A DNA stretch of 64,000 nt, from NCBI GenBank assembly GCA_028869135.1, contig JAGWTC010000003.1, positions 62,001 through 126,000 of the forward strand. Reading direction: 5' to 3'. The stretch comes from Rhodocyclaceae bacterium. Lineage in GTDB: Bacteria > Pseudomonadota > Gammaproteobacteria > Burkholderiales > Rhodocyclaceae. Made by a program: the position numbers and the translations under genes. Below, piece by piece: positions 23,610 through 27,364 of the stretch (position 1 is its first letter; the number at the start of each line of letters is the position of its first letter). The notes under the pieces are model-generated. The model had not been told where the DNA came from and did not search any database. It was given only the letters and a program-made list of their open reading frames with translations.

Positions 23610-25472
23610 CTAATGGAGTTCGTTATAGATTTCTTCCGCCAGTTTACGGCTAATTCCATCCACGCGGCATAAATCTTCGACGGTTGCGGCAAGCACCCCC
23701 TGCAGACCGCCGAAATGAGCCAGAAGTTTCTTGCGCCGCGTCGGGCCGACCCCGGCCACATCCTCCAGGCGCGAGTGGCCGCGCGCCTTGGCGCGCCGGG
23801 CACGATGGCCGACAATGGCGAAACGGTGCGCTTCGTCGCGGATTTCCTGGATCAGGTGAAAGCCCGGATTGTCCATCGGCAGATGCAGTGGCGCCTCGCG
23901 ACCGTGCACGAAAAGCGTCTCCAGGCCGGGTTTGCGGTCCTCGCCCTTGGCCACGCCGACGCTCTGCAGATGCTCGAGTCCGAGCTCCGTAAACACCTCG
24001 CGCGCCACGCCGTGCTGGCCCTTGCCTCCGTCGATCAGGATCAGGTCGGGCGCCACGGCGTCGCCGCTGGCGACCTTTTCATAGCGTCGCGTCAGCGCCT
24101 GGCGCATCGCCGCGTAGTCGTCGCCCGGCGTGATGCCACTGATATTGAAACGTCGGTACTCGCTGTTCTTCATCGCGCCGTCGATGCAGACGACGCAGGA
24201 GGCCACCGTGCCCTCCCCCTGCGTGTGGCTGATGTCGAAGCATTCGATGCGCGCCGGCGGCTCGTCCAGCCCCAGGGCTTCGCGCAGGGCTTCGAGGCGG
24301 GCACCCGAGCGGATCGCGTTCTGACGCCGCGCCTCGATCGCCAGCTGGGCGTTCTTCTCCGCCATCTGCAGCCAGGCCCGCTCCATCTCGTTGCGCGGCT
24401 GAGCCACGGTTACCTTGTGTTCGGCGGATTCGAACACGGCCACCACCTGCTCGGCAATATCGTGCGCGACCAGAATGCGTACCGGCGGCGGATGCAGCAG
24501 GTAGTGCTGTTCGACGAAGGCAATCAGGCCTTCGGCTTCGTCCCCGTTGAGGCCCGAGGACGCCCCTTTGGGGAACTGCGCCCGATCGCCCATGTGCTGG
24601 CCGCCGCGCACCATGGCGAGATTGATGCAGAGCGCATCCTGGCCGGCCACTGCCGCGATGATGTCCACATCCTCGTCACCCGTCGAGCTGACGAACTGCT
24701 TGTGCAGCACCGACTGCAGCGCGCGGATCTGGTCGCGCCATTGCGCCGCCTCTTCGAAACGCATGCCTTCCGCCGCCGCCTGCATCTTCACGGTCAGGTC
24801 GTCGATGACCTCGCTGTGCTTGCCGCGCAGGAACAGGTCGGCCATGCGCACATCCTGGGCGTAGTCCTCCTTCGAGATCAGGCCGACGCAAGGACCCTTG
24901 CAGCGCTTGATCTGGTATAGCAGACAGGGCCGCGAGCGATTGCGGAATACCGCTTCCTCGCAGGTGCGCAGCAGGAAGGTCTTCTGGATCAGTTGGATGC
25001 TCTCGCGCACCGCGAGGCCGCTGGGGAAAGGCCCGAAGTACCTCGCCTTCTTGTCGAAACCGCCGCGATGATAGGCCAGACGCGGGAACTCGCTCGCCGT
25101 CAGGCTGATATACGGATAGGACTTGTCGTCGCGAAAGAGGATGTTGTACTTCGGCGCGAGCTTCTTGATCAGCGTGTTTTCGAGGATCAGGGCTTCGGCT
25201 TCGGAGCGCGTGGCCGTCGTCACCACGTTCGCCACCTGCTGCAGCATCAGCGCGATGCGCGGGCTGTGGCCGGTCTTCTGGAAGTAGGAACTGACGCGGC
25301 GCTTGAGGTTCTTGGCCTTGCCGACATAGAGCACCTCCTCGCCCCGGCCGAGCATGCGGTACACACCCGGATCCTCGGTCAGCGTGGCGAGAAAGGCCTT
25401 GGCGTCGAATTGTGGTTCGGGCGCCGAAGCGGAGCTCGAAGTCGAGCTGTCGGCGCCTGCTTTATCGGTCAT
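23610..25472 (-). CDS. uvrC: Excinuclease ABC subunit C
   Basis: A 620-residue UvrC that makes both incisions in nucleotide excision repair. It has an N-terminal GIY-YIG nuclease domain (PGVYRML, VLYVGKAKNLKRRVSSYF), a UVR motif around FEEAAQWRDQI, an RNase H-like C-terminal nuclease domain (IECFDISHTQGEGTVAS, LILIDGGKGQ) and a terminal helix-hairpin-helix pair (LEDVAGVGPTRRKKLLAHFGG). The ATG at 25472 is preferred to one at 25511, which would give a non-family N-terminus. The leader contains a Ser/Ala-rich linker unlike most UvrCs. It is divergent from earP with 29 bp between. Confidence 0.96.
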   Translation of the reverse strand: MTDKAGADSSTSSSASAPEPQFDAKAFLATLTEDPGVYRMLGRGEEVLYVGKAKNLKRRVSSYFQKTGHSPRIALMLQQVANVVTTATRSEAEALILENTLIKKLAPKYNILFRDDKSYPYISLTASEFPRLAYHRGGFDKKARYFGPFPSGLAVRESIQLIQKTFLLRTCEEAVFRNRSRPCLLYQIKRCKGPCVGLISKEDYAQDVRMADLFLRGKHSEVIDDLTVKMQAAAEGMRFEEAAQWRDQIRALQSVLHKQFVSSTGDEDVDIIAAVAGQDALCINLAMVRGGQHMGDRAQFPKGASSGLNGDEAEGLIAFVEQHYLLHPPPVRILVAHDIAEQVVAVFESAEHKVTVAQPRNEMERAWLQMAEKNAQLAIEARRQNAIRSGARLEALREALGLDEPPARIECFDISHTQGEGTVASCVVCIDGAMKNSEYRRFNISGITPGDDYAAMRQALTRRYEKVASGDAVAPDLILIDGGKGQHGVAREVFTELGLEHLQSVGVAKGEDRKPGLETLFVHGREAPLHLPMDNPGFHLIQEIRDEAHRFAIVGHRARRAKARGHSRLEDVAGVGPTRRKKLLAHFGGLQGVLAATVEDLCRVDGISRKLAEEIYNELH

Positions 25473-25501
25473 GCGGGCAAAGCGAAGATAGAATCGCGTC
25501 G

Positions 25502-26719
25502 ATGGTAACACCTGACCCCAAGCCCACCTGCGACATCTTCTGCCGCGTCATCGACAACTACGGCGACATAGGCGTGTGCTGGCGTCTGGCGCGGCAATTG
25601 TGCGAAGAACACGGCTGGCGCGTGCGGCTGTGGGTGGACGATTTGCGGGTGTGCGCACAACTGGTTCAGGGCGAGGTCGTCGAGGGCATCGAGCTGCATG
25701 CGTGGCATGACGCCAGCCCGGCCACGCCCCCCCGCCCGCACGAGCGGCGGGCGGAGTTTCTCGCTTCGACGCTTGAGTCGTCGGCTCCCTCCCCCCTTGC
25801 GGGAGAAGGACAGGGAGAGAGGGCCGCCCCCCTCCCCGCATCCGTCGTCATCGAAGCCTTCGCCTGCGAACTCCCGGACCGTTATGTCGCCGCGATGACG
25901 GCCATGGCGCGACAGCCGGTCTGGCTCAATCTCGAATATCTGTGCGTGGAAGATTGGGGCCCGAGCTTTCATCTGCAACCCTCGCCGCATCCCCGTCTGC
26001 CGCTGCTCAAGCACTTTTTCGTGCCGGGCATTGCGCCGGGCACAGGCGGCCTGTTGCGCGAAGCCAACCTGTCGGCACGCCGCCAACGCTTCGACGCCGC
26101 GGCGGCCCGCCGCACCTATGCGGCCGACACCGCAGGACGCTGGGTATTCTTGTTCTGCTACGACAATCCGGCCCTGCCCTGGCTGCTCGACGCCTGGGCC
26201 GACGGCGACCAAGCCGTGCATTGCCTGGTCGCGGCCGGCAAGGCCAACGCCCAGGTCTCCGCCTGGCTCGGCAACGCCCTGCCACCAAGTCACGGCGCCC
26301 GCCGCGGCGCGCTGCATCTGCACGCGCTGCCCTTCGTGCCGCAGCGCGACTTCGATCAGCTTCTATGGACCTGCGACCTCAATCTGGTGCGCGGCGAAGA
26401 CTCGTTCTCCCGCGCGCTGTGGGCGGCGCGCCCCTTCGTCTGGCAACTCTATCCGCAGCAGGACGCCGCTCATCACACCAAACTGGCCGCATTCCACAAG
26501 AACTACGCCGCGCCCGAGGCCCTCCAGGCCTTCAGCAATCTCTGGAACGGCATTGCCGTGCCGACGCCGGAAAACGTCGCCCGGTCCTGGCAGGCGCTGG
26601 ATGCCGCCCTGCCCGCGCTGCAGGCGCATGCGCAAACATGCCTGCCGCGCTTCGAAGCAGTGGGCAAGCTTGCCGAAAACCTGGTCGATTTCTGCCGCAG
26701 GACAGGGAATATTTCTTGA
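25502..26719 (+). CDS. earP: EF-P arginine rhamnosyltransferase with in-frame repeat insertion
   Basis: A 405-residue EarP that transfers rhamnose from dTDP-rhamnose to Arg32 of EF-P, needed to relieve ribosome stalling at polyproline. The N-terminal DNYGDIGVCWRLA (Asp18 and Asp22) and the C-terminal RGEDSFSRALWA are diagnostic. The gene is followed by efp 87 bp downstream. About residues 73-112 appear to be an in-frame insertion encoded by a dispersed-repeat-like sequence (SPLAGEGQGER) between the Rossmann strands HAWHD and VVIEAFACELP. All catalytic residues lie outside it, so the enzyme may still work. Confidence 0.93.
   Translation: MVTPDPKPTCDIFCRVIDNYGDIGVCWRLARQLCEEHGWRVRLWVDDLRVCAQLVQGEVVEGIELHAWHDASPATPPRPHERRAEFLASTLESSAPSPLAGEGQGERAAPLPASVVIEAFACELPDRYVAAMTAMARQPVWLNLEYLCVEDWGPSFHLQPSPHPRLPLLKHFFVPGIAPGTGGLLREANLSARRQRFDAAAARRTYAADTAGRWVFLFCYDNPALPWLLDAWADGDQAVHCLVAAGKANAQVSAWLGNALPPSHGARRGALHLHALPFVPQRDFDQLLWTCDLNLVRGEDSFSRALWAARPFVWQLYPQQDAAHHTKLAAFHKNYAAPEALQAFSNLWNGIAVPTPENVARSWQALDAALPALQAHAQTCLPRFEAVGKLAENLVDFCRRTGNIS
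25718..25837 (+). repeat. Translated dispersed-repeat insert within earP
   Basis: This GC-rich segment contains CTCCCTCCCCCCTTGCGGGA and a following GAGAAGGACAGGGAGAGAGG, the layout of short imperfect palindromic repeats scattered in many high-GC proteobacteria. Read in this frame they give the familiar peptide SPLAGEGQGER. Its length keeps the frame open. The boundaries are judged by where the EarP-like protein sequence resumes. Confidence 0.6.
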
Positions 26720-26806: not shown

Positions 26807-27364
26807 ATGAAAATCGCACAGGAACTCCGCGCCGGCAACGTCATTCTGGTCAGCGGCACCCCGCTGGTCGTGCAAAAGACCGAGTACAACAAGTCCGGCC
26901 GTAACGCCGCCGTGGTCAAGATGAAGATGAAGAATCTTCTGACCGGCGCTCCCAGCGAAGCCGTCTACAAGGCCGACGACAAGTTCGACACCGTCCAGCT
27001 TGACCGCAAGGAAGTCACCTACTCCTATTTCAGCGACCCGGCCTACGTCTTCATGGACGCCGAGTACAACCAGTACGACGTCGACGGCGAGAACATGACC
27101 GACGCCCTCAAGTACCTCGAAGACGGCATGGCTTGCGAAGTCGTGTTCTACGACGGCAAGGCCATCTCGGTCGAACTGCCGAACAGCGTGGTACGCGAAG
27201 TCATCTACACCGAGCCGGCCGTCAAGGGCGACACTTCGGGCAAGGTCATGAAGCCGGCCAAGTTGTCCACCGGCTTCGAACTGCCGGTTCCGCTCTTCGT
27301 CGATATCGGCGACAAGATCGAAATCGATACCCGCACCGACGAATACAAGGCCCGCGTGAAGTAA
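26807..27364 (+). CDS. efp: Translation elongation factor P
   Basis: A 185-residue EF-P, the three-domain factor that binds between the P and E sites and rescues stalling at consecutive prolines. The tip of domain I reads KSGRNAAV with Arg32, the residue rhamnosylated by EarP, rather than the Lys of the EpmA pathway; the earP gene is immediately upstream. The length is normal and the C-terminal domain ([27 protein letters not shown]) is complete. Confidence 0.98.

Follow-up and report, generated by a model that had tools for sequence, protein, structure and literature searches.

Results

The earP locus

The window analysed here, a stretch of 64 kb on contig C36 of a draft Rhodocyclaceae genome (2.82 Mb in 63 contigs, 96% complete), carries on its plus strand, at 25502-26719, a coding sequence for a protein of 405 amino acids plus stop; a longer version of the same ORF begins at 25412. 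The protein is EarP by its match to Pfam family PF10093 (E 2.2e-123, 412.5 bits), which is broken into two stretches, and by its fold, as the top 14 Foldseek matches are all EarP structures. Directly 3' of earP, an ORF of 185 amino acids at 26807-27364 (plus strand) was named efp, the gene of the translation factor that is the substrate of EarP, from its translation by eye. On the other side a uvrC-like ORF (23610-25511, also read by eye) is divergent from earP, and the two overlap by 10 bp (25502-25511) at the listed start codons; probably the true start of one of them lies further in. Farther along the window, between 33832 and 41230, there is a row of repeats of 97 nt and shorter, with 12 copies of a 38-nt core and short ORFs between them, which by their motif look like integron attC sites; six of the short ORFs between these repeats match no Pfam family, and there is no integrase among the ten ORFs scanned.

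EarP of Pseudomonas and Neisseria (structures 6j7k, 5nv8 and 5wxi) is of the same family and fold as the window protein and, by alignment, has identical catalytic acids, the roles of which are those assigned in the portion of PMC5615199 drawn on here. These acids, D18, D22 and E299, are present in all 107 rows of an alignment of the window protein with 106 distinct relatives (109 proteins). Outside the loop described below, the window protein shares 57.9% identity with one of these relatives, L018, and thus matches it as well as another relative, L017, does (55.9%). As far as sequence can tell, EarP with its insert therefore shows no sign of a decaying enzyme.

An extra loop in the N-terminal domain

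A first-pass annotation of this DNA had proposed that about 40 residues interrupt the N-terminal Rossmann domain of EarP, and our comparison bears this out at a slightly smaller size. In the multiple alignment the stretch from W68 to V115 comprises 46 amino acids in the window protein and 9-20 in 104 of the 106 distinct relatives; in both genomes of the same genus (G001 and G002) it comprises 11, which puts the excess at about 35 amino acids (105 bp). The extra residues sit between two strands of the Rossmann domain, and the long gap in the DNA alignment to the earP copy of G002 falls at the inserted segment. The three EarP structures lack the insert, their alignments ending at query residue 57-69 and restarting at 109-111. 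The annotation had named as its own refutation a segment shared with orthologues as an ancestral loop; none of the 106 distinct relatives in the multiple alignment carries it, and the loop lengths across them rule an ancestral loop out. The two relatives with longer loops are Pandoraea captiosa (27 amino acids) and Cupriavidus cauae (59). The loop of the latter is an AGES-rich tandem stretch unrelated in sequence to the window insert and represents a second, unrelated mode of growth at the identical position of EarP.

The boundaries given earlier, 25718-25837, were close. Our best DNA limits, which are approximate and based on the excess of about 105 bp and on the lengths of the inverted pairs described below, are 25718-25823 (plus strand), a segment of 106 bp when read as one inverted pair. 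That the insertion keeps the frame was rightly recognised, as the ORF is open across it and is identified as EarP by PF10093. An AlphaFold2 model based on an alignment of 49 rows has a confident core (mean pLDDT 90.3, pTM 0.87), with pLDDT below 50 at residues 72-96 and 98-100 and with flanking strands at 63-67 and 115-119. EarP residues 72-100 are accordingly predicted by the model to be disordered.

A dispersed repeat unit within the insert

The downstream part of the insert, 25783-25823 on the plus strand, is a clear copy of a dispersed repeat, and its translation includes SPLAGEGQGER. A degenerate pattern search of the source genome gave eight distinct places (ten rows), the window copy included. 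A covariance model built from 14 copies, among them the window copy, found, at 11 sites of the source genome, 17 matches with E below 1e-6, of which 14 are the training copies and three are new. With this model, trained with it, the window copy scores 53.5 bits (E 2.4e-9 in its own genome) and is the only match in the 64 kb under default filters. A profile built without the window copy recovers the same 41 bp at E 1.5e-8, as compared to E 0.22 for the best match in the reversed window.

In each unit a pyrimidine arm is followed, after a loop of about 5 nt, by its complementary purine arm and then, beyond a short spacer, by another purine arm as the third arm. From its sequence the repeat is the BoxC/PIT "intrastrand triplex motif" in the sense of the sections of Holder et al. 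2015 (PMC4666352) used here: the units are by eye nearly identical in sequence to the E. coli motif of Table 1 of that paper, and the two have in common the arm layout, the dispersed occurrence and the frequent arrangement in inverted pairs. All 17 units score above the maximum of 3000 control 43-mers for triplex potential, and the three consecutive arms are predicted to be able to form a class II triplex (Y-R-R). The window unit has the lowest triplex score of the 17, with 7 of 9 pairs and 7 of 9 triads. In a plasmid collection 12 records match the query; none covers 80% of it, and the matches listed all fall within the unit part.

A complete inverted pair or a single unit?

The 17 strong units of the source genome are dispersed over 11 sites. 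At six of these sites the units form an inverted pair, 99-109 bp long in all, in which 17-27 nt separate the two units. In the EarP insert, a GC-rich hairpin at 25718-25758 (minus strand) occupies the position expected for the left partner and is separated from the clear unit by a linker of 24 nt (25759-25782). Apart from the unit itself it is the best match in the window to the 16 other units, scoring 14.6 as compared to at most 12.2 elsewhere in the window (42,498 overlapping 43-mers). Several results speak against it: its score is attained by 6 of 2000 shuffled versions of the stretch; among 12 further loci of the source genome another place scores 14.8, slightly above the putative partner; the covariance model gives 25718-25758 just 2.3 bits; and its triplex score falls inside the control range. 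With moderate confidence we regard this hairpin as a decayed partner unit.

For the upstream 60 bp of the insert no convincing copy was found elsewhere. Matches to the upstream half outside the window are short and weak (G007 at E 0.004, G032 at E 0.01 and weaker, G000:C1 at E 0.02, G047 and G027 at E 0.07-0.09, and G002, over the first 17 bases, at E 0.07), and the two that were inspected do not show the element, so that this half was rejected as an independent known repeat. The claim that the extra peptide is the translation of a dispersed repeat thus stands for 25783-25823, with the 17 strong copies at 11 sites that the proposed genome search brought to light, while the upstream half amounts at most to a degenerate partner unit. 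Taken together, the size of the insert, the spacing and the degenerate partner point to the insertion of an inverted pair as a whole (about 106 bp).

Other copies in the source genome

A second copy of the repeat lies in frame in recC of the source genome (C5:9203-9243; L166, L003), where PF04257 spans it. RecC is longer by 17 amino acids, exactly at the repeat, than its orthologue in G001 (82% identity over the query); no RecC match was found in G002, the other genome of the genus. The RecC insertion is cleaner than that of EarP. EarP and RecC are the two of the 11 sites that lie in recognisable genes; the C39 site has a spanning ORF with no Pfam family, and the remaining sites were judged from their ORFs.

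In-frame copies in related genomes

Units at E <= 1e-4 are present in 25 of 61 genomes of the family, the source genome included. In 9 of the 28 loci that this search gave in other genomes the unit falls within a Pfam domain or in the stretch separating two domains of a single ORF, namely in CusA-like pumps (L211, L219), AroA (L213), KdtA (L216), biotin carboxylase (L220), PolA (L222), terminase (L223), asparagine synthase (L225) and lipoyl dehydrogenase (L230). The same holds for 11 of 59 sites selected from the listed matches in six genomes (L235, L236, L238, L246, L250, L272, L275, L280, L284, L291 and L292), one further region of the 60 (L248) having no unit at the threshold. Of these, L275 is counted through its identity of place with L211, and L238 because the acyl-CoA dehydrogenase domain is matched in two stretches, one of which was located. 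Besides acyl-CoA dehydrogenase, genes new in this set include those of UvrD, UDP-sugar dehydrogenase, MetRS and LeuRS, as well as a hybrid kinase, a glycosyltransferase, a second AroA (G002) and a second KdtA (G012). Two places are common to both sets (L211/L275 and L220/L235), which leaves at least 18 distinct sites in relatives and at least 20 in all. Pfam scans covered 30 of 36 spanning ORFs in the first set and 20 of 51 in the second, so that the counts of copies within coding sequences are lower bounds. The choice of frames is supported by nine ORFs on other frames or on the opposite strand at such places, none of which matches a Pfam family. The first-pass suggestion that such repeats can become protein sequence is supported, and the EarP insert is joined by many other coding cases within the family, RecC and AroA among them.

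Where solved enzymes could be compared, the insert of AroA corresponds to a gap of 15 residues against 3nvs and that of the CusA-like pump of L219 to 18 residues against CusA 3t51; the structure alignment of KdtA leaves the repeat site uncovered. In three families the repeat occupies the same place in two genera: in AroA (L213 in G075, L272 in G002), in the CusA-like pump (L211 in G003, L219 in G019) and in KdtA (L216 in G006, L236 in G012). The AroA loop could be read in 33 genomes (35 of 40 loci), and just two of these, G002 and G075, have the insert, both of them in the same loop; the five unparsed loci include that of G083, whose match is long enough to hold an insert. The remaining 31 genomes lack it, a distribution that suggests repeated insertion, transfer or else numerous losses.

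Discussion

Origin of the EarP insert

We consider it highly probable that the extra loop of EarP arose when a copy of the BoxC/PIT repeat, most likely a complete pair, was inserted in frame into the gene and then drifted. The inverted pair of about 106 bp would have entered the part of the gene that encodes a loop joining two strands of the N-terminal Rossmann domain, and the enzyme produced would be complete, with about 35 disordered residues added to it. Such an outcome follows from three properties taken together: the repeat is poor in stops, as 87 of the 102 frames of the 17 units (six frames each) are open; the net gain in length leaves the reading frame intact; and the loop accommodates changes in length. 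Insertions that break a needed gene would be lost, so that the survivors expected are those with lengths divisible by three in loops and linkers. Later drift would account for the degenerate left unit and for the right unit, whose triplex pairing is weaker than that of any other of the 17 strong copies in the genome. EarP would have retained its activity with the insert; the segment may well be disordered in the real protein too, as it is in the model, and the inserted peptide is probably neutral.

A point against this reading is that the EarP loop can lengthen by other means, as the 59 amino acids of the C. cauae protein demonstrate. One could accordingly argue that the window insert is a lineage-specific loop grown by local gain of sequence, which owes its resemblance to a repeat to base composition. 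The variable loop length among relatives, including the tandem AGES-type residues of that one protein, would fit such an origin, as would the lack of a clear copy elsewhere for half of the insert. However, base composition does not readily explain a 41-bp unit that scores 53.5 bits and that a profile made without it recovers at E 1.5e-8, against 0.22 in the reversed sequence. For 25783-25823 local growth is thus largely refuted, and for the insert as a whole we regard it as unlikely. A trace less likely still is that the insert is selected in EarP, for instance for contact with EF-P or for translational control through proline pairs or mRNA hairpins. The insert does contribute a PP motif at residues 76-77, and according to the part of PMC6544042 cited here polyproline stalling is relieved by EF-P. 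Yet the number of PP motifs ranges from 0 to 5 over the 107 EarP rows, seven of which, the window protein included, have PP in the loop, and a feedback through this motif was judged weak on these counts; moreover, the segment is predicted to be disordered and is not common to relatives. An assembly artefact, finally, might be suspected in a genome of 63 contigs and 96% completeness, but the site lies well within a contig of 177 kb, the frame is kept and the copy is distinct from the other copies seen, which makes this explanation very improbable.

How, then, would the inserted BoxC/PIT repeat have moved? Membership in the REP/RAYT system was considered and rejected. There is no invariant GTAG or CGTC tag column among the 14 aligned units, and a search for the Y1 (RAYT) transposase family PF01797 gave no match in the source genome at its 96% completeness, the control search giving matches in 5 of 14 genomes. 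With neither a tag nor a Y1 transposase, the REP/RAYT route is unsupported.

Wider meaning

Taken by itself, the EarP case is modest; the recurrence across housekeeping genes is what adds weight to it. Bacterial palindromic repeats of such kind have mostly been described as intergenic. Here a triplex-forming repeat, known chiefly from work on genome instability, is part of a coding sequence at no fewer than 20 sites in one family, two in the source genome and at least 18 in relatives; the proteins concerned include RecC, AroA, DNA polymerase I, UvrD and two tRNA synthetases. As the same kind of repeat is found in frame in other housekeeping genes of relatives, it looks like a recurring source of novel protein sequence. 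We would go further only tentatively, with a proposal of which we are not quite half persuaded: that the BoxC/triplex repeats of the Rhodocyclaceae move by a new route that needs no RAYT of the own genome, that they keep supplying housekeeping genes with new in-frame protein segments, some loops having been hit repeatedly in different genera (AroA, CusA, KdtA), and that the EarP insert is a domesticated copy. This raises questions that can be tested, namely how the repeat moves without an evident transposase and what effect a loop of 15-35 residues has on an essential enzyme. For annotators, the lesson is that stretches resembling SPLAGEGxGER can be translations of a repeat.

Comparison with known in-frame repeats

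Palindromic repeats within genes are already known. The RPE of Rickettsia are described, in the parts of PMC3733652 and PMC2759123 relied on here, as palindromic repeats that lie in frame in housekeeping genes and are read as protein; going by these descriptions alone, they resemble the EarP repeat in being palindromic, in frame and translated, and they belong to other organisms. ERIC-like units likewise occur in enterobacterial genes, as stated in the same portion of PMC2759123. GTAG- and CGTC-tagged REPs are found in ORFs both as single units and as dimers, the dimers coding for 20-30 amino acids, and many of these REPs lie in DNA repair genes including recBCD (PMC3733652, in the sections cited). 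The repeat described here shares with them the location within genes and differs in having neither the GTAG or CGTC tag nor a Y1 transposase. No report of a BoxC/triplex repeat read in frame as protein was found in searches of the open-licence literature. The table of PMC2267715, in the form available to us, has no genic or intergenic class for BoxC, and coding copies may therefore have been seen before. Finally, the copies of the E. coli BoxC/PIT repeat discussed in the cited sections of PMC4666352 are intergenic, whereas in the source genome 2 of the 11 sites of its close counterpart lie in frame within genes.
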